Origin: an uncultured Methanobacteriaceae archaeon
GTDB taxonomy: Archaea > Methanobacteriota > Methanobacteria > Methanobacteriales > Methanobacteriaceae
Length of the DNA: 37,179 nucleotides
Assembly (NCBI GenBank): GCA_902782945.1
Contig: CACZOU010000002.1
Location: 1-37,179, forward strand
Direction: 5' to 3'
The position numbers and the translations under genes are program-made. Position 1 is the stretch's first letter. Every line of letters starts with the position of its first letter. The notes below the pieces were generated by a model, which was not told the origin of the DNA, did no database searches, and was given only the letters and a program-made list of their open reading frames with translations. Positions 5,946 to 14,432 of the stretch are shown here, piece after piece.

Positions 5946-6542
5946 TTACTCCTTCTTAGCATGATGATTAGAGATATCTAAATCATCAAGTGTATTAACA
6001 TTAAAAGCTAATTCTACACTATTTGATATATAGATTGTTTGATCTTGTTCCTTAGTATTAGCTAACACTACATTAACACCTGTAGGTACTAATCCCTCAA
6101 AGACTAATGTTGGAGTTAAATTATACTTATCAAATAAATTTGCTGGTACTGAAACACACATAGCAGGTTTATCCCTATCATAATAATGATCTAACACGTC
6201 GTCTATATGTTCTGAAGTTATAAAAGGTAAATCTGCTACAAGAGTCATTACAACTTCATCTTCCTCAACATATTTTCTGTCAGAAAGAATATCTGACAAA
6301 TCTTCCACATATCCATTACCTTTAGTTTTTATTATTATAACTGGGAAATCTTCCAGATATTTCTCAGTGAAAGGAGTGTTAGGACTCACAGCTACAATAA
6401 TTTTATCTATATATTTAGAACTTGTTAAAGCATCTAATACATGTGTAACCATTGGCTTACCCTTAACTTTAATCATAGGTTTCTCACAATCGGAATCCAT
6501 TCTACTGCCTTTTCCACCAGCCATTACTAACGCCGTTGTCAT
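5946..6542 (-). CDS. cobY: GTP:adenosylcobinamide-phosphate guanylyltransferase CobY
   Basis: CobY transfers GMP to adenosylcobinamide phosphate during assembly of the corrinoid nucleotide loop. It is the archaeal, non-homologous replacement of bacterial CobU. The 198-residue protein starts with the nucleotidyltransferase signature MAGGKGSRM (residues 7-15) and continues with KPMIKVKGKPMVTHVLDAL and a VTLVADLPFI-type metal-binding strand. The length fits the family. A molybdenum-cofactor guanylyltransferase is the main alternative, but the KGKPMV and downstream segments favour CobY. MtrA, encoded about 4 kb away, is a corrinoid protein that would use its product. GGAAG lies seven bases before the ATG. 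Confidence 0.85.
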   Translation of the reverse strand: MTTALVMAGGKGSRMDSDCEKPMIKVKGKPMVTHVLDALTSSKYIDKIIVAVSPNTPFTEKYLEDFPVIIIKTKGNGYVEDLSDILSDRKYVEEDEVVMTLVADLPFITSEHIDDVLDHYYDRDKPAMCVSVPANLFDKYNLTPTLVFEGLVPTGVNVVLANTKEQDQTIYISNSVELAFNVNTLDDLDISNHHAKKE

Positions 6543-6735: not shown

Positions 6736-7605
6736 ATGTTAGAAAATCTGAAAACAGCATTATTATTAGGAATAATGTCTGCAATACTTGTAGTAGTCTG
6801 TGGAGCTATCGGAAGTATTTTTAGCTTAGGTAGTTTTGGTATCTTCATAGGATTTATATTTGCAATTATTATGAATTTCGTATCATATTTCTATTCTGAT
6901 AAAATTGCATTATCCTCATATAATGCACGTATTGTGTCAGAGCAAGAAGCACCAAATCTTCATAGAATCATTGGTGAACTATCAAATCAGGCAGGCATTA
7001 AAAAACCAAGAGTAGCAATAATCGAGTCTAATACTCCTAATGCTTTTGCAACAGGACGTAATCAAAGTCACGCAGCAGTAGCAGTTACAACAGCCCTTCT
7101 TCAAATACTAAACGAAGACGAGTTACGTGGAGTATTATCACACGAACTAGGACATATAAAAAACAGAGATATTCTAATAAGTTCTGTGGCAGCAACCCTT
7201 GCAGGTATGATTGTAGCTATTGCTGACTGGGGAAGATATGCAGTATTTTTCGCAACCGATGATGATGCAGGTAGTATTTTAGGATCATTATTAATAGCAA
7301 TTCTTGGTCCGATAGCTGCAACATTAATACAGTTATCTATTAGCAGATCACGTGAATACAAGGCTGATGCAACTGGTGCCCAGATATGTGGTAATCCTCA
7401 TGCTTTAGCAGAGGCACTTAGAAAACTAGAATTTGCTAATATTAATATGCCTATGACTGATGCTAAATCAACAGATGCACATATGTTTATAATAAATCCA
7501 CTTACTAATATAGGTGGTGCATTACAGAAATTATTTTCAACTCATCCAAGTACAGCTGATAGAATAAAAAGATTAGAAGGAATGGCTGTTAGCCAACAAT
7601 ACTAA
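6736..7605 (+). CDS. htpX: HtpX-like M48 family membrane zinc metalloprotease
   Basis: A membrane-bound zinc protease of the HtpX/M48 family, thought to degrade misfolded membrane proteins. The 289-residue product has two N-terminal membrane segments (about residues 8-30 and 34-54), the zinc site HELGH at residues 136-140, two more hydrophobic segments (about 148-170 and 182-203), and the third-ligand region SREYKADATGAQ. The C-terminal FSTHPSTADRIKRLE matches the family end. It stands alone and is convergent with mmp14. Only 15 bases separate the stops, so its T-rich terminator must lie within the mmp14 3' end (about 7624-7655). Confidence 0.93.
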   Translation: MLENLKTALLLGIMSAILVVVCGAIGSIFSLGSFGIFIGFIFAIIMNFVSYFYSDKIALSSYNARIVSEQEAPNLHRIIGELSNQAGIKKPRVAIIESNTPNAFATGRNQSHAAVAVTTALLQILNEDELRGVLSHELGHIKNRDILISSVAATLAGMIVAIADWGRYAVFFATDDDAGSILGSLLIAILGPIAATLIQLSISRSREYKADATGAQICGNPHALAEALRKLEFANINMPMTDAKSTDAHMFIINPLTNIGGALQKLFSTHPSTADRIKRLEGMAVSQQY

Positions 7606-7620
7606 CAACATTAAGTTCTA

Positions 7621-8994
7621 TCAGAATTTTCTTATTTTATTATTTTTAATTCTTTGCTGCATTATACACATGCCCCTTCTAGATCCGCCTACTGGATTAG
7701 ATGGCGTACCTAAGGAATTCATACATCTTGCCATCATTAATGCACCTAATGCTAATCCGTCCTGTGCAAATAAAATATTATCAAAATCTTCTTTCAAATA
7801 TTGTTCTATGAAATAAGGTTTATATCCTGTTATTCCTGCTCTTCCAGTTATTCCTAGTGTTGTATCTTGTTTTATGAGATTTAATTCATTAGTTTTATCC
7901 ATTAACCGTTTTATTAAAAATGCATACATATCATCTATTTGTAACATGACCTGATTGTTATCAAAGTTTTCTATTATGTTATTAAATGTATCTACTAATT
8001 TTTCGGTATTATTAATTCTTGAACCTATAACTTTGATTTTTGATTGTTTTATCTTCGTGGAATCTACAGCAACAGAACCAAATTCATTAACTTCCGGAGG
8101 AACTTCCATGATATCAATATATTCATGTAATTTAAGAGTATTTTCATGTAACAATACCTCATCATATCCATTATTATTTTCAGTAAATGTTAAGTCAATT
8201 GTTGAATGATTATCTTCTATAATTTCACAATCTCTCAAAATAATATCAGAGATACCGCCAGCCAGTCCAACATAATTACAGGTTAAACTTGCATAAGGTT
8301 TATGATTATCAATCACTTGTCCGGCAAGAGTAGTCCCCATATCCACAGATATCACAGGATTACGATAATCTATCACAGAACCTTTACTAGCAAGCTTTAA
8401 ACCAGCTGTAACTAATTCCCCCTCCATCTCATTAGCGACTCTGCCTATTGATTCTGGTGAAGATACACTGACAACTGATCCATCAAACTGTATATTATTA
8501 AAAAATGAGAATTTACGTATATGTTTTGGAATATTATTTATAGAAAATGGGGCAGTCATTTGTGCAGGTTTAACTCCTGCCTTCAAACAACCATCGGATA
8601 ATGCTTTGATAATAGATCCTACTTCACTAGATAAACCAGAAATAGCAACAACACCTGTTGATCTAACTACAAAGTCCAAATCACTTACAGATAAATTGAT
8701 TTCAGCTAATGAATCAAGAATTATGCTTGATATTGCTTCTTCTATAGCTTCTTTTGATAACGGTTTATCCCATATTGTATGACCGAATATTTCCTCTGAT
8801 GGTGATGGCAGTCTTATATCCCTAGTTAAACGTACCATCTTATTCAACTGATAATTCTTATTAGTTTTAATATTTGTAGTCATAATTATAGACTTAATAG
8901 TTGTATTTCCTAGTTCTACTGATAAAACTGTGAAGAATTGGTCCTTTATATCGTTAGGTGATATTCTAGGTATTGTAACTTTATCTAGTGTCAT
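7621..8994 (-). CDS. Methanogenesis marker protein 14 (Mmp14), ASKHA-like
   Basis: I recognise this as the methanogen-specific marker protein 14 by its overall sequence and its place at the end of the mtr operon. It is 457 residues long, with no membrane segment. Several segments resemble the ASKHA (actin/acetate-kinase/Hsp70) nucleotide-binding fold: a first phosphate motif ELGNTT (27-32), a second DMGTT (218-222), and a glycine-rich adenosine-type motif GITGRAGITG (381-390) followed by FAQDGLALGAL. The biochemical role is not established. Four bases separate the mtrH stop from its ATG and no clear ribosome site is seen, so it is probably coupled to mtrH. The lysine- and asparagine-rich C-terminus is encoded by the stretch that also serves as the htpX terminator. 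Confidence 0.8.
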   Translation of the reverse strand: MTLDKVTIPRISPNDIKDQFFTVLSVELGNTTIKSIIMTTNIKTNKNYQLNKMVRLTRDIRLPSPSEEIFGHTIWDKPLSKEAIEEAISSIILDSLAEINLSVSDLDFVVRSTGVVAISGLSSEVGSIIKALSDGCLKAGVKPAQMTAPFSINNIPKHIRKFSFFNNIQFDGSVVSVSSPESIGRVANEMEGELVTAGLKLASKGSVIDYRNPVISVDMGTTLAGQVIDNHKPYASLTCNYVGLAGGISDIILRDCEIIEDNHSTIDLTFTENNNGYDEVLLHENTLKLHEYIDIMEVPPEVNEFGSVAVDSTKIKQSKIKVIGSRINNTEKLVDTFNNIIENFDNNQVMLQIDDMYAFLIKRLMDKTNELNLIKQDTTLGITGRAGITGYKPYFIEQYLKEDFDNILFAQDGLALGALMMARCMNSLGTPSNPVGGSRRGMCIMQQRIKNNKIRKF

Positions 8995-8998
8995 AGTA

Positions 8999-9931
8999 TC
9001 ATAATAAATTTTTATATGGATGTGAATCTATTGGATTAATGCCTATTGCCTCGTTAGCCTCAGCTATAAACATGTCTGTCATTGCACATGCTGTGAATGC
9101 TTTTCTAGTATTTTCTATTGGACCGAATAATACAAAGTCTCCACCAGCCATTTGCTGGACAATGTTAGCTCCTACATCACATACAGGCCATACTTCAGGG
9201 TATTCCTTTTTATATTTTTTAATCCAATCCCATGCTGATGGTACATTATGTACTCCACTACCAGCAGGATAACCCCATTTACTTTTCTCATTTATTGTTG
9301 CTTTTATTGCACTTCCTCCTCCTTGTCCTAGAGGTGTTACTGCAACATCCATTAAAGGTTTGAATATACCACAATCATCAGCTATTTCCAGTAATCCTTT
9401 TTCTAGAATACCTGCTCCATTGTCCCATAATTCTATTTTTCCTTCAACACCTGGTTGAGTTGGATTAAATCCTAGTATTATTGATGAGGTTATGTCTGAG
9501 TTTGTTATTGCTTCGATTTCTTCCGTGTCTATGGACATGTTTATAGAGTTATATATGGTTCTTTCTGCTAATCCTGATTCTGTTACATGTTTTGCTCCGG
9601 CTATTCTTGCATCTGCTGATGTTGAATCTATAAGAAATGGTGCGTCAGATATTGATGTTACAAAATCTATATATTTAAGTAAAGCTTCAGGTGTTGCTCC
9701 GAATATTTGTACTATATTAGGATTTCCTGTTAAATCTGTCATTTCATCCATAGTATTTAATAGAGTTTCTGCCTTATCCTTGTCAAAAATTCCCTTATTC
9801 TCATCAGATATAATATTATGACCAGCATAAAAAATTGTACCTGCTAATACAGTTGGATATTCACCAGGCTGTCCACCTATCTTTACACCATAAACATCAA
9901 ATACTTCTTGTTTTTGTTCAAATTTAAACAT
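8999..9931 (-). CDS. mtrH: Tetrahydromethanopterin S-methyltransferase subunit H
   Basis: MtrH is the peripheral subunit that carries the methyl group between methyl-H4MPT and the corrinoid of MtrA. Its 310 residues adopt the TIM-barrel fold of pterin methyltransferases. The recognisable N-terminus is MFKFEQKQEVFDVYGVKIGG, and characteristic segments include IGGQPGEYPTVLAGTIFY and VGANIVQQMAGGDFVLFGPIE. A GGAG six bases before the ATG supports the start. It is the last mtr gene; a 42-base gap separates it from mtrG, the largest gap within mtrDCBAFGH. Confidence 0.96.
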   Translation of the reverse strand: MFKFEQKQEVFDVYGVKIGGQPGEYPTVLAGTIFYAGHNIISDENKGIFDKDKAETLLNTMDEMTDLTGNPNIVQIFGATPEALLKYIDFVTSISDAPFLIDSTSADARIAGAKHVTESGLAERTIYNSINMSIDTEEIEAITNSDITSSIILGFNPTQPGVEGKIELWDNGAGILEKGLLEIADDCGIFKPLMDVAVTPLGQGGGSAIKATINEKSKWGYPAGSGVHNVPSAWDWIKKYKKEYPEVWPVCDVGANIVQQMAGGDFVLFGPIENTRKAFTACAMTDMFIAEANEAIGINPIDSHPYKNLL

Positions 9932-9973: not shown

Positions 9974-10168
9974 CTAAATTATTGTGAGTTTCATTAATAT
10001 AATCACTACAATTAGTGCTATTATTATACCATATAAAAATCCTATATCTCTTCCAATACTTTTTCCAGTTTTCTGAGAAAATTCACCATGAGACTCTTCT
10101 AGTCTTTCCTCTAACTTATCTAAACGTTCATTAATTTGTTCAAGATCTTCTTTTATATTATCAGACAT
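9974..10168 (-). CDS. mtrG: Tetrahydromethanopterin S-methyltransferase subunit G
   Basis: A 64-residue subunit of the sodium-pumping membrane methyltransferase. The first half is a charged coiled-coil type helix (EDLEQINERLDKLEERLEES) and the end is one membrane segment (about residues 46-63). Its ATG overlaps the mtrF stop in a TAATG arrangement, so translation is coupled. No key family feature is missing. Confidence 0.93.
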   Translation of the reverse strand: MSDNIKEDLEQINERLDKLEERLEESHGEFSQKTGKSIGRDIGFLYGIIIALIVVIILMKLTII

Positions 10169-10356
10169 TAAAAGCCCCCACTATAGTATAATATAGGTAT
10201 ACCTACAATGATTAATGTACATATAAATCCAATTAATATACCACTTATACGAGTACTCTCCACACCACTAATTAATCTTTGGTTTCTTCCAATTAACTGG
10301 GCTCTATACTCTATTGAATCTACCAATTCACCAATATTGTTCATTGTCTTTTTCAT
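10168..10356 (-). CDS. mtrF: Tetrahydromethanopterin S-methyltransferase subunit F
   Basis: A 62-residue subunit with one C-terminal membrane segment (about residues 38-58). Its segment SGVESTRISGILIGFICTL parallels the end of MtrA (NSGYYAGKIEGIVLGFILTL), reflecting the known kinship of MtrF with the MtrA tail. The ATG is one base after the mtrA stop. A second in-frame ATG at 10344 is possible, but the first keeps the usual length. Confidence 0.92.
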   Translation of the reverse strand: MKKTMNNIGELVDSIEYRAQLIGRNQRLISGVESTRISGILIGFICTLIIVGIPILYYSGGF

Positions 10357-10357
10357 A

Positions 10358-11119
10358 TTAAACCCAACCTATCATTATTACAATTAGAAGGATTAAGGTT
10401 AATATAAAACCAAGAACTATACCCTCTATTTTTCCTGCATAATACCCTGAATTTATTTTCTCAAGACTGCCAATTTCCTTAACTTCATTATTCATTAACC
10501 TTATACGGTCTTCTATTTCAAGTAATCTTAAAGCTGATGAATCAACATTACCTGTTCCCTGAGAACTATATTCAACTTCATCCTCTTCTATTTCTTCATC
10601 TTCCTCAGATTCACTTAACTCAACAACCATCGGTTCCTCAGGAAAAACTTCAGGATCTTCATCTATACATTCCTGTATCTTAGCAGATATTTCATCTAAA
10701 TTCTCATTATCTATCATACTGATAAGAGACACTTGTCTTTGAAATCGCTCTACTGCTTCAACAGATAAATTTTCCACAAAAGGTATTGCTCCAGGTGAAC
10801 CTATGATAGATTTCTTATCAGAATCAATACCATTTTCATATAAAGCCTCAACAGTTTTACCAGTTATATGACCCTGTACTTCTGAACCACATATCACAAC
10901 ATAACGAATATTTGAATTAGAAATAACATTTGCAACAAATTTTTCTATTCCTAGATTTTCTGTATGTAATGGTCCTGCAATAGCAGCTCCAGCATTTACT
11001 AGTTCTTCATTCATTTTTGAACCCAATGATACAACTGCTACTGGACTACTAGAATCACCAACATCATAATCTCCAGTTTCTAGAGGCCAACCTTGTACAA
11101 CTTCCATATCTTCTACCAA
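10358..11119 (-). CDS. mtrA: Tetrahydromethanopterin S-methyltransferase subunit A (corrinoid subunit)
   Basis: MtrA carries the corrinoid that shuttles the methyl group between H4MPT and CoM. A TTG at 11119 is the preferred start: AGGAGG sits eight bases before it, whereas the ATG at 11107 would be 20 bases away. With TTG counted as residue 1, the cobalt-ligating histidine in EVQGHITG falls at residue 84, the number known for the Methanothermobacter enzyme. The corrinoid domain covers about 1-170, followed by an unusually acidic linker (about 165-195) and a single C-terminal membrane helix (about 231-252). Eighteen bases separate it from mtrB. Confidence 0.96.
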   Translation of the reverse strand: MVEDMEVVQGWPLETGDYDVGDSSSPVAVVSLGSKMNEELVNAGAAIAGPLHTENLGIEKFVANVISNSNIRYVVICGSEVQGHITGKTVEALYENGIDSDKKSIIGSPGAIPFVENLSVEAVERFQRQVSLISMIDNENLDEISAKIQECIDEDPEVFPEEPMVVELSESEEDEEIEEDEVEYSSQGTGNVDSSALRLLEIEDRIRLMNNEVKEIGSLEKINSGYYAGKIEGIVLGFILTLILLIVIMIGWV

Positions 11120-11136
11120 AGTACTTTCCTCCTATA

Positions 11137-11436
11137 TTAGACTATTAATATTAATATTATCAATGCAATTATTACTCCTATAACCACATTTGTTAATAAT
11201 CCTGCTTTTCTATATACTCCATTCCTATTATTTTCTGATAAATTAGATGTTGTCCTAGAATCTAAGGAGGATTCCAAATCATCTATTGCACTTTCTAATC
11301 TATCGATTTCAGATATAACATCATCTATTGGAAATGATACTCCCTCTGATTTTATACTTGATTTAGACCCAATGACTCCAGTATTAACATCCATAACAAG
11401 GTCATCATCAATTATAACTTTTGAGTTATCAACCAT
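11137..11436 (-). CDS. mtrB: Tetrahydromethanopterin S-methyltransferase subunit B
   Basis: A 99-residue subunit with a hydrophilic, partly coiled-coil N-terminal part (EIDRLESAIDDLESSLDSR) and one C-terminal membrane helix (about residues 80-98). The ATG overlaps the mtrC stop in TAATG, and AGGAGG lies seven bases upstream inside the end of mtrC, so the two are coupled. Confidence 0.94.
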   Translation of the reverse strand: MVDNSKVIIDDDLVMDVNTGVIGSKSSIKSEGVSFPIDDVISEIDRLESAIDDLESSLDSRTTSNLSENNRNGVYRKAGLLTNVVIGVIIALIILILIV

Positions 11437-12224
11437 TAAAATTCCTCCTCATCATTTTTAGGCCATAATCCATACCATCTTACTGATGCTGCTTGTTGTT
11501 TAGTGTATTGGAAGTATTTTCTAATACTTATAATCCATCCGATAAGTGATATCACTAGATAAACATACCAATAACCATTACTAACCACACTTATAATTGA
11601 AATAACCATCAACATTAAAAATGCATTAGCTATTGCTAGAGATAATGTTCTATATTGGTCTTCATTTGGTCCCATGCATGAATTATACGGATTTTGTATA
11701 GCCATTACTGTTATAATCATAAACAATATTATTAACCCATTTTCTATAACATAGTGGTATATCATATTAGCGTCTGAAGAAGATAATACTAGTGTTGACA
11801 TTGCCATTATAGTGATTGTAGTAGCAATAGCAATAGACATGAAAGATTTTGATAATATTTCAACCTGTATATTAAATACGTATTTACATATTAATGAGAT
11901 TGATAAACCAATTAATCCAGCAATTACTACGCTAATTATTGGAAATAGCATTGACTGATCTACAAACAGGGATAATGAAATACCTACAATAGAACTTATT
12001 AGACCACATGCAGTTAACATGTAAACAATAGAAGGTACTCCAGTACCTAAACTATACTTACCCACATGTCTGAGTGTATTTGTTCCATAAACAACACCCA
12101 ATATTGTAGCTATGATTGAGAAAATACCCCCAATTGATGAGATATTGCTTGCATAGATACATATTAAACCACCGGCAAGTGATACTAGTGTTATAATCTG
12201 ATGTGGAATTAAATCATCAGCCAT
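11436..12224 (-). CDS. mtrC: Tetrahydromethanopterin S-methyltransferase subunit C
   Basis: An integral membrane subunit of 262 residues with about seven or eight hydrophobic helices, one of the three large membrane subunits (C, D, E) that form the sodium-translocating part. Characteristic segments are GVVYGTNTLRHVGKYSLGTGVPS near the N-terminus and MGPNEDQYRTLSLAIANAFLM towards the end. The ATG abuts the mtrD TAG stop directly, with a G-rich ribosome site (GGGGGT) six bases upstream. Confidence 0.95.
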   Translation of the reverse strand: MADDLIPHQIITLVSLAGGLICIYASNISSIGGIFSIIATILGVVYGTNTLRHVGKYSLGTGVPSIVYMLTACGLISSIVGISLSLFVDQSMLFPIISVVIAGLIGLSISLICKYVFNIQVEILSKSFMSIAIATTITIMAMSTLVLSSSDANMIYHYVIENGLIILFMIITVMAIQNPYNSCMGPNEDQYRTLSLAIANAFLMLMVISIISVVSNGYWYVYLVISLIGWIISIRKYFQYTKQQAASVRWYGLWPKNDEEEF

Positions 12225-12923
12225 CTATAGACCCCCTAAAATCAATGCATATACTACTGCTAATATAATAGACATGATAAAACATGAAATAGTACCTGAT
12301 ATTATTTTTGATTTGAATTTCTTATCATAAAATCCCTGAATAGTACCACCAATATTATATGATGCTACAACAGCAATAACAAAGAATAACATTATTGCTA
12401 AAATAGCTGATACTGATCCACATGCCATTGTTGAATATACTTGTTTTAAATTTAATTCATTATATATTGCCCAAAATGCAAGTGAACCACCGACACCACC
12501 TAGAAATGAACCAATCAAACCACTTACGAATGATATTGTTGGTATTCCATGACCTGTTGTACCTGGACTAACATACGGCTCTTGCTGGAAACCTGTGATT
12601 GGATCTTTTTCAAAGTTGGCTGATGCTGGTGGAACTCCCACACCATAAACATGTATCATGTTAGAAAATAGCATAGTTACTGCCATCATTATCATGGAAC
12701 CTATTGCACCAGACATGATAATAATATATTCTGGTTGTCCAATAACACTTGTAGCAGCTAATATTCCTGTGATTCCCATTCCAATTGTTATCATTGGAGC
12801 TCCTGTAGGTATACCAGCAGTTGTTGATAGTGCAGCTGGTGCACCACCTACAGGTATGAAATGAACACCTATACCAATAATTGTTGATCCTATTATTATA
12901 CTTATTAATAATTCAATCATCAT
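12225..12923 (-). CDS. mtrD: Tetrahydromethanopterin S-methyltransferase subunit D
   Basis: A 232-residue polytopic membrane subunit with about six hydrophobic helices rich in Gly, Ala and Ile. It contains the family segment HVYGVGVPPASANFEKDPITG in its central loop. Two consecutive ATG codons begin the gene; GGAG about ten bases upstream favours the first. It lies 17 bases after mtrE. Confidence 0.95.
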   Translation of the reverse strand: MMIELLISIIIGSTIIGIGVHFIPVGGAPAALSTTAGIPTGAPMITIGMGITGILAATSVIGQPEYIIIMSGAIGSMIMMAVTMLFSNMIHVYGVGVPPASANFEKDPITGFQQEPYVSPGTTGHGIPTISFVSGLIGSFLGGVGGSLAFWAIYNELNLKQVYSTMACGSVSAILAIMLFFVIAVVASYNIGGTIQGFYDKKFKSKIISGTISCFIMSIILAVVYALILGGL

Positions 12924-12940
12924 CTCATTTTATCTCCAAT

Positions 12941-13813
12941 TTATTTTTCATATTCTCCATATATAGAACGAGACCTACGTTCTAATAAGTAATTTAATCC
13001 TAATATTAGTAGAACTATTATAAATCCTACAACTAATCCTATTTGTACTCCGAAAACTAGGAATATCCAAAAATTAAGGAATATAATTATTCCAAAACAA
13101 AGCCCTGTTATTGGTCCAGCAAATTTAGAACAGAATTTAACTACATCCAATGAATTTCTAGAACCTAATGAATCTCTTGTTGTTATATCACCATTAACAG
13201 ATACAGGTATTCCTGAACCATACTTATGATGTTGATATAGTTTTTCAGCACCATAGTGAATATCTCCAACAGCAGACCCGATAGAACCTAATGAAACACC
13301 TAATAACAATGTTGCAATAGGTAATGTTAATGGAATTGCTGGTTGTAAGACGTAAATCATTAGATAAGCTAGTGTTGTAATTGAAAATAAGTTTATGAAA
13401 GCATGTGCTGCAGCTACAGGAACATGTTTATATATGACATCCATAAACAATGGTTGATTATATAATGCTTGACTTGTTATACGTCCCATGTATGAAGTAA
13501 CTGAAAAAATAGCTTGTATTATTGTTGTTATAATAGTTGCTAATAATATTGACAATAGTACTGGTTGATTTATTTGTAATAATACATAAGTAATAGATCC
13601 AGCTATAGTTGCCATTGTACCAACAAGCAATGGTTCTCCAGATACTGCTCTGTTAAATAATTTATGTAAATTACCTACCTGTGGTGCTAGTTGAACCTGA
13701 GAATTTGGATTACTTGTTGATGCTACATCAGATTCCAAATCCTCAAACATACCAGCTAAGATTGCTAAAAATCCCATCAGAGTAACTAAACATAGATTAT
13801 ATACTATATCCAT
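12941..13813 (-). CDS. mtrE: Tetrahydromethanopterin S-methyltransferase subunit E
   Basis: A polytopic membrane subunit of 290 residues, believed to take part in sodium translocation. It has the conserved N-terminal region EDLESDVASTSNPNSQVQLA and later segments GSAVGDIHYGAEKLYQHHKYG and GIPVSVNGDITTRDSLGSRN. I chose the ATG at 13813: GAGGT lies seven bases upstream, the protein then begins MDIVYN like other MtrE proteins, and the 16-codon upstream extension to 13861 would overlap mcrC and has no family counterpart. It follows mcrC by 16 bases. Confidence 0.95.
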   Translation of the reverse strand: MDIVYNLCLVTLMGFLAILAGMFEDLESDVASTSNPNSQVQLAPQVGNLHKLFNRAVSGEPLLVGTMATIAGSITYVLLQINQPVLLSILLATIITTIIQAIFSVTSYMGRITSQALYNQPLFMDVIYKHVPVAAAHAFINLFSITTLAYLMIYVLQPAIPLTLPIATLLLGVSLGSIGSAVGDIHYGAEKLYQHHKYGSGIPVSVNGDITTRDSLGSRNSLDVVKFCSKFAGPITGLCFGIIIFLNFWIFLVFGVQIGLVVGFIIVLLILGLNYLLERRSRSIYGEYEK

Positions 13814-13829
13814 ATTCGTTACCTCTTCA

Positions 13830-14432
13830 TTAATACCCATACTTTTCAATTGTATTTTCAACTTTATCGATTATTTCATCTAATTTTTGTTGAGTACAGG
13901 ATTCTCCACGAATTACATCAGTTATTAATTCAACAATTGTTCCCTGTGTTTCTGGTTTTTCAGGCATTACAGCAGCAGTTTTAACTCCAATTTTTGCAAA
14001 ATCTTCAAAGTCAACAGGATACTGTGAAATAATTATAACAGGTTTGTTAATATTTTTCAGTACGTGTTTTGCCTTATAAATAATATGATTTTTTACTCCG
14101 CCAAAGTGTATTAACACTACTTTATGCCTACCCATCTGTGAAATTTCTTTAGGTGTAACTCCAAATAGACCGTTACCTCCACCAGTAGGTGTGTCTCTAG
14201 GAACCCCTGAACCAGCATTAAGAACTAAAGTACTGGTTTGAATATTAGCCTCTCTTAATGCAAAAGTAATTTCACAAACTGGTTTTGTAATATGTCTACG
14301 ACCTGGTGACATAGCCACAGCTAACAAATCATCTCCACATTGAGCATATGTTCCACGCTGTGCTATTCCACCACCTTCACCTATTCCTCTTGTTTCCCTA
14401 CAATCAACAATATGAGTACTTTTTCCAATCAT
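13830..14432 (-). CDS. mcrC: McrC, methyl-coenzyme M reductase operon protein C (MCR activation component)
   Basis: McrC is not part of the MCR enzyme itself; work on Methanothermobacter and Methanococcus places it in the ATP-dependent complex that activates MCR. The 200-residue protein has the recognisable blocks [20 protein letters not shown] (residues 13-32), [20 protein letters not shown] and [20 protein letters not shown]. In most relatives mcrC sits inside mcrBDCGA; here it stands alone at the head of the mtr operon. AAGGTAAT precedes the ATG. It shares visible similarity with Mmp7 (27903-28811). Confidence 0.94.

Follow-up and report, generated by a model that had tools for sequence, protein, structure and literature searches.

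RACo and RamA reactivate other corrinoid proteins, and the activators of 2-hydroxyacyl-CoA dehydratases likewise form an established family. Activators of the BadF/HgdC type have two Cys residues per monomer and one shared [4Fe-4S] cluster. ASKHA-type reactivases without Fe-S also serve B12 enzymes (diol dehydratase and ethanolamine ammonia-lyase). In methanogenesis, sodium is pumped by Mtr. Corrinoids in the Co(I) state are prone to oxidation; the Vogels group reportedly described an ATP-dependent reductive activation of the methyl-H4MPT:CoM methyltransferase in extracts. The m-number scheme for methanogenesis markers is said to come from Borrel 2019.

Methanogenesis marker 14 (Mmp14; arCOG04866) is missing from three Methanomassiliicoccales without Mtr, and its gene is found close to mtr in several orders (Borrel et al. 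2014; PMC4153887). The same paper already proposed that Mmp14 is involved in Mtr. The marker section of that account treats marker 14 as a conserved hypothetical protein, and a fold, an ATPase, a mechanism and Mcr-less archaea do not figure in that section. ProPhylo placed marker 14 among the markers agreeing perfectly with methanogenesis (PMC3226654). Marker m26 was tied to Mtr and is present in Thorarchaeia with MtrAH only, according to the passages on this marker in Adam et al. 2022 (PMC9635834). This distribution fits the archaeal family f39 described below, and we infer that m26 is Mmp14. A structure paper of 2025 mentions uncharacterised activators of Mtr in the part consulted (PMC12774963). 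No published ASKHA fold, ATPase or activase role for Mmp14 was found in the open-access literature. To our knowledge, the fold of Mmp14 and its separation from Mcr and from MtrE are apparently new, as are the finding of an mtrA-mtrH-mmp14 operon in archaea without Mcr and the lack of RACo in many Mtr-bearing methanogens.

The window, i.e. the whole stretch of 37,179 nucleotides analysed here, comes from an uncultured Methanobacteriaceae archaeon. The genes relevant to this study are as follows.

7621..8994, minus strand: mmp14, methanogenesis marker 14 / DUF2114, predicted ASKHA-fold ATPase of 457 aa (TIGR03285, DUF2114, models and fold searches).
8999..9931, minus strand: mtrH, methyl-H4MPT:MtrA methyltransferase subunit (TIGR01114, 488.8 bits).
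10358..11119, minus strand: mtrA, corrinoid-carrying subunit with an axial-ligand-type His at residue 84 (TIGR01111, 289.4 bits).
9974..13861, minus strand: remaining mtr operon around mtrA (mtrG, F, B, C, D and E), assigned from ORFs, tblastn queries and the mtr order in related loci.
5946..6542, minus strand: cobY-like NTP transferase gene downstream of mmp14 (148 bits against the 250-bit CobY equivalog cut-off).

The mmp14 ORF starts with ATG. With TIGR03285 (methan_mark_14; cut-off 274), its product reaches 626.5 bits and covers positions 1-445 of the 446 in the profile; with Pfam DUF2114, it reaches 559.6 bits (E = 5.5e-168). Judged by its sequence, which passes the curated cut-off over nearly the full profile, the protein is a member of the methanogenesis marker 14 family. 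The gene had been described as directly following mtrH, four bases past its stop, and the end of mtrH indeed lies 4 nt ahead of the mmp14 start, both on the minus strand. Upstream of mmp14 and in the same direction are mtrH, mtrG, F, A, B, C, D and E, followed by mcrC. MtrA is a likely client of Mmp14. We take its His84 to be the axial cobalt ligand. This residue was compared with His85 of Methanosarcina mazei MtrA, as given in the 2025 structure paper (PMC12774963).

Several features of the surroundings should be noted. At 12941-14432, mcrC (minus strand) overlaps the start of mtrE without mcrG or mcrA between them; this contact also occurs in other Methanosphaera loci (L031-L037 and L048), and the assembly to which the window belongs gave no McrA match. 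Between mmp14 and the cobY-like gene, the other strand carries a gene for an HtpX-like M48 protease (6736-7605). It occupies this place in Methanosphaera loci and in L038, and was not found there in other genera. The NTP transferase can be called only CobY-like, since its score is below the equivalog cut-off.

Across the window's phylum, a cobY-like gene follows mmp14 in 18 of 20 genus representatives, and mtrH lies upstream on the same strand in 15 of the 20. For four of the five loci without an upstream mtrH, the fetched stretch covers less than 2.6 kb upstream; at locus L052, no mtr gene was found across 9.7 kb upstream of mmp14. In Methanosphaera loci mtrH and mmp14 almost touch, and mtr genes are present within the fetched stretch at 4 of 15 loci of McrA-bearing genomes of other families. 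The placement of mmp14 in the mtr operon, as proposed in the preliminary description, holds literally in Methanosphaera and in Mcr-less archaea, whereas elsewhere the gene lies 0.2-4.6 kb downstream or no linkage is seen.

Three motifs form the putative nucleotide site of Mmp14.

8899..8916, minus strand: phosphate-1-type motif ELGNTT, residues 27-32, between strands 20-28 and 32-41 (sequence; DSSP on the model).
8329..8343, minus strand: phosphate-2-type motif DMGTT, residues 218-222, between strands 214-219 and 222-228 (sequence; DSSP on the model).
7825..7854, minus strand: adenosine-type motif GITGRAGITG, residues 381-390, at strand 379-384 and ahead of helix 392-400 (sequence; DSSP on the model).

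All three are found at the residues, and in the ASKHA order, in which they had been read earlier. In the predicted structures, phosphate 1 and phosphate 2 are located on β-hairpins, and the adenosine loop is located between a strand and a helix. As modelled, the phosphate-1, phosphate-2 and adenosine motifs are thus present in order on the right elements, phosphate 1 being a variant. The usual residue in phosphate 1 of the ASKHA superfamily is Asp, whereas Mmp14 has Glu (Glu27) in all 20 sequences compared, and this residue is also invariant in the more diverse alignment of the L108 homologue. In an alignment of 30 sequences from many archaeal families, the mean conservation of the motif windows is 0.893, compared with 0.635 for the whole protein. 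Only 7 of 20,000 random window triples in this alignment are as conserved as the three motifs, indicating that the motifs exceed chance. Among 20 sequences of the archaeal set, Glu27, Gly29, Asn30, Lys34, Thr113, Gly220, Gly225, Gly243, Gly246, Gly381, Gly384, Arg385, Gly390, Asp412 and Cys424 are invariant, while Thr31, Thr32, Arg111, Gly114, Asp218, Thr222 and Thr383 differ in L107 alone. Asp218 is kept in 19 of the 20, and the sole exception comes from a genome without MtrA.

No credible solved relative of Mmp14 was found by sequence among PDB chains (phmmer and two profile searches). We predicted the structures of the window protein from a 34-sequence Mmp14 alignment (model 1; pLDDT 81.5, pTM 0.85) and of its L108 homologue from a more diverse alignment (model 2; pLDDT 92.2, pTM 0.91) with AlphaFold. 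Foldseek against the PDB gave 271 and 165 chains, respectively, at E ≤ 0.001. The best 50 matches of each model are, as far as their type can be assigned, ASKHA proteins, namely MK0840, glycerol kinase, Kae1/TsaD, glucokinase, CoaX, Hsp70, FtsA, and RACo alone and in complex. The putative sugar kinase MK0840 ranks first, and RACo (3zyy, 4c1n) ranks 9-11 for model 1 and 8, 12 and 13 for model 2. In VIA-align, the top Z scores are 16.9 (model 1) and 17.8 (model 2). The best matches of model 2 include FtsA (Z 17.8, 4.0 Å, 266 residues), the 3-methylbenzoyl-CoA reductase subunit 9gai_C (Z 17.7, rmsd 3.4, 251 of 264 residues), CoaX (Z 17.6, 3.7 Å, 252 residues; 16.2 for model 1), AnmK (Z 17.4, 5.0 Å, 303 residues; 16.8 for model 1) and MK0840 (Z 17.2, 4.5 Å, 291 residues), with Z differences within 1. 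For the same model, the activator 4ehu gives Z 16.1 (3.5 Å, 246 residues). RACo, DdrA and EutA are not among the best 50 VIA-align matches of either model, while RACo does appear in Foldseek. The matches of both models in both searches make the fold class clear: Mmp14 is predicted to have a duplicated RNase H-like ASKHA fold. This fold, whose presence in a predicted structure the preliminary description had made the touchstone of its proposal, is found in both models. The modelled fold by itself cannot tell an activase from a kinase. In a viral structure library, the low-E matches are only ASKHA proteins of cellular type, and no relative was found in a scan of viral contigs.

The activators of 2-hydroxyacyl-CoA dehydratases and the benzoyl-CoA reductase subunits (1hux, 4ehu and 9gai) resemble the predicted Mmp14 fold over almost their entire length (Z 15.6-17.7, rmsd 3.4-3.7); Mmp14 is about 200 residues longer than these proteins of the BcrAD_BadFG (PF01869) type. 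In hhalign, phosphate 1 of these activators, with which Mmp15 is grouped, lies in register with that of Mmp14. RACo and RamA (PF14574; 3zyy, 4c1n) share with Mmp14 the ASKHA fold, the nucleotide motifs and the company of a corrinoid methyl carrier, but Mmp14 is shorter, has neither PF14574 nor an Fe-S domain, and occurs in methanogens without RACo (21 of 41). MK0840 (4bg8/4bga/4bgb), AnmK and CoaX are among the best overall fold matches, and no common family match or gene context with Mmp14 was found for them. The diol dehydratase and EutA reactivases, whose activity is cobalamin exchange, are of the ASKHA fold class that is predicted for Mmp14. At the sequence level, neither the Pfam scan nor hhalign matched Mmp14 to RACo or BadF: PF01869 and PF14574 (RACo_C_ter) gave no match in the scan up to E = 1, and hhalign gave 14.4% against the BadF/Mmp15 alignment (around phosphate 1 only), 19.4% against RACo (out of register) and 3.3% in another RACo/BadF-type comparison. 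The control pair RACo-BadF gave only 0.4%, below the Mmp14 values, so that the profile-profile comparison is uninformative on the kinship of Mmp14 in either direction.

The distribution of Mmp14 was examined in 392 archaeal genomes of at least 90% completeness, about 298 of them outside the window's phylum. Of the 392, 140 have Mmp14, 134 have McrA and 186 have an MtrA domain. The 52 genomes with Mmp14 outside the phylum include 51 with an MtrA domain and 41 with McrA, and Mmp14 is present in every one of the 41 genomes there whose MtrA match reaches E ≤ 1e-58. A search for the membrane subunit MtrE covered 80 selected genomes, made up of these 52, 13 that have McrA without Mmp14, and 15 that have just an MtrA-like domain. 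It was detected in 41, all of which also have Mmp14 and McrA. Thirteen of the 54 McrA genomes outside the phylum are without Mmp14; none of these has MtrE, and five have a divergent MtrA-like domain. These counts show that Mmp14 tracks MtrA, not Mcr.

The remaining 11 genomes with Mmp14 have neither McrA nor MtrE, and mmp14 adjoins mtrA-mtrH in 10 of them. In family f39, the order metF-mtrH'-mtrA-mtrH-mmp14-cofE-larC is kept in all eight genomes, mtrH' being an mtrH-like gene, with metV found in seven; at these loci (L097-L104), cofE (F420 ligase) and larC (nickel insertion protein) follow mmp14, and methylenetetrahydrofolate reductase genes precede it. Judging from MtrA and MtrH without MtrE, and from the text of PMC9635834 on such genomes, we infer that f39 is Thorarchaeia. 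Genome G205 has mtrA-mtrH-mmp14, and in G236 mmp14 is divergent from a 544-aa MtrA-MtrH fusion in a single ORF (L106:3050-4681). The exception is G278, which has no MtrA domain in the genome and whose Mmp14 carries T31V, T32V, G114D, D218H, T222L and T383A. The absence of MtrA and the broken ATP motifs point the same way as the MtrA link, as an anecdote from one genome. Co-occurrence and gene linkage thus tie Mmp14 to MtrA/MtrH, even where MtrE and Mcr are absent. The protein had been put forward as a candidate corrinoid reactivation factor; it keeps that candidacy, and its tie to MtrA/MtrH is far stronger than the gene order of one window.

Outside the phylum, 42 genomes have an MtrA-like domain and no Mmp14, the matches often being distant (E = 1e-5 to 1e-53). 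The prediction that these genomes have RACo failed, as 7 have it and 35 do not. Loss of the corrinoid ligand in their MtrA-like proteins was rejected as well: the axial-ligand-type His is retained in 29 of the 30 that were sampled. The sample covers 30 loci out of 39 matches from 38 genomes, the four genomes with the weakest matches being left out. Not every corrinoid MtrA-like protein, therefore, needs either activator. Within the window's phylum, Mmp14 is absent from 22 of 149 genomes in one search and from 6 of 94 in the 392-genome set, which we did not count as loss. The six are also without McrA; five have a single MtrA match, which in at least four is a short frame (187-197 aa) like that of the soluble paralogues, and one has none. 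These absences are thus more simply put down to an mcr-mtr contig that is missing from the assembly.

RACo itself is unevenly distributed. Among the 41 genomes outside the phylum with Mtr, Mcr and Mmp14, a RACo domain is present in 20 and absent from 21, i.e. about half of the Mtr-bearing methanogens tested there are without a RACo-type activator, and all of them have Mmp14. The 13 McrA genomes without Mmp14 all have RACo. In the window's phylum, RACo_C_ter occurs in 30 of 120 genomes, and the window's own genome has both proteins. Both also occur together in all eight f39 genomes, which suggests that Mmp14 is not simply a RACo substitute.

We propose, at about an even chance, that Mmp14 is a stand-alone ASKHA-fold ATPase conditioning the corrinoid module of MtrA or MtrA-MtrH, most likely for the return of Co(II) to Co(I). 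Mmp14 would bind the oxidised (Co(II)) corrinoid domain of MtrA, and ATP binding or hydrolysis would open or reposition the cobamide domain, altering the cobalt environment. A separate low-potential donor would then return the cobalt to Co(I); in the f39 operon, metV/metF may provide it. That Mmp14 would hydrolyse ATP, touch MtrA and take part in a redox step is postulated by analogy with RACo/RamA and the dehydratase activators, and reductive reactivation appears the likeliest role.

The donor is left separate since Mmp14, as noted earlier, has no obvious Fe-S domain, and no Fe-S family was matched in the Pfam or NCBIfam scans. The only near-invariant Cys residues are Cys136, Cys424 and Cys443 (in 29, 30 and 29 of 30 sequences). 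Residue 242, presumably near the position of the activator cluster Cys, is Cys in 20 of 30, and no obvious equivalent of the activator Cys pair is present. An electron donor gene conserved beside mmp14 was looked for and not found, the 10 of 76 listed neighbouring ORFs scanned at other methanogen loci looking unrelated. The lack of an Fe-S domain, the 42 MtrA-like genomes without Mmp14, the co-presence of RACo in f39 and the Glu in phosphate 1 are points against reductive conditioning of MtrA. More tentatively, and with somewhat less than an even chance, Mmp14 may found a separate class of Fe-S-free ASKHA corrinoid reactivases, acting as a general activator of canonical MtrA and predating the split between methanogens and Mcr-less MtrA-MtrH archaea.

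Many methanogens encode no known corrinoid activator, as seen in the 21 of 41 without RACo, and Mmp14 is a good candidate for the missing factor. If it does found a separate class of reactivases, Mmp14 would be the enzyme, so far missing, that maintains the step at which hydrogenotrophic methanogenesis pumps sodium and conserves energy. An activator role would also account for one remaining methanogenesis marker. A named protein, mutable ATP-site residues and the soluble MtrA-MtrH system of Mcr-less archaea make the question testable.

The main rival to reductive conditioning is that Mmp14 is a chaperone for cofactor exchange or holo-assembly, loading cobamide into apo-MtrA or removing damaged cobamide with ATP and no electron transfer. 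Its standing comes from the Fe-S-free ASKHA reactivases of B12 enzymes, among which Mmp14 without an Fe-S domain would fit, and from the corrinoid-type genes nearby, i.e. the CobY-like gene in the phylum and a CobN-family gene in L108. EutJ of the ethanolamine utilisation system is also a good structural match of model 2 (Z 16.0, 3.6 Å, 252 residues). However, the CobY-like and CobN-like neighbours score under the NCBI equivalog cut-offs, and the Mmp14-less MtrA-like proteins keep their His, which suggests that a dedicated cobamide loader is not universal. We regard this rival as rather unlikely. The CobN-family protein in L108 (7459-9474, between mtrH and mmp14) has 672 aa, about half the usual length.

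That Mmp14 is a kinase phosphorylating a small molecule or a methyl-transfer protein is improbable. The closest folds do include sugar kinases, with MK0840 at the first Foldseek rank, as well as AnmK and CoaX at the Z scores given above, but no kinase family match was obtained in the Pfam and NCBIfam scans, and Mmp14 co-occurs and links strictly with mtrA/mtrH, not with a biosynthetic pathway. An Hsp70-like assembly or quality-control factor for the whole membrane Mtr complex, or an ATP-sensing regulator, is more improbable still: the mtr linkage in Methanobacteriales (15 of 20 genus representatives) and the Hsp70 chains among the Foldseek matches would suit it, but mmp14 is kept beside mtrA-mtrH in the 10 genomes where no MtrE was found, so that its conservation is independent of the membrane part.

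In-frame stop codons were seen in some of the genes compared. The RACo genes of three f39 genomes (L131, L132 and L134) have an in-frame TGA in the matched stretch or frame, two of them also a TAG, and stop-codon recoding of RACo in these three genomes is possible. RACo has an in-frame TAA in three f24 genomes, and so does one Methanosphaera mmp14 (G091:C159:7781-9067).
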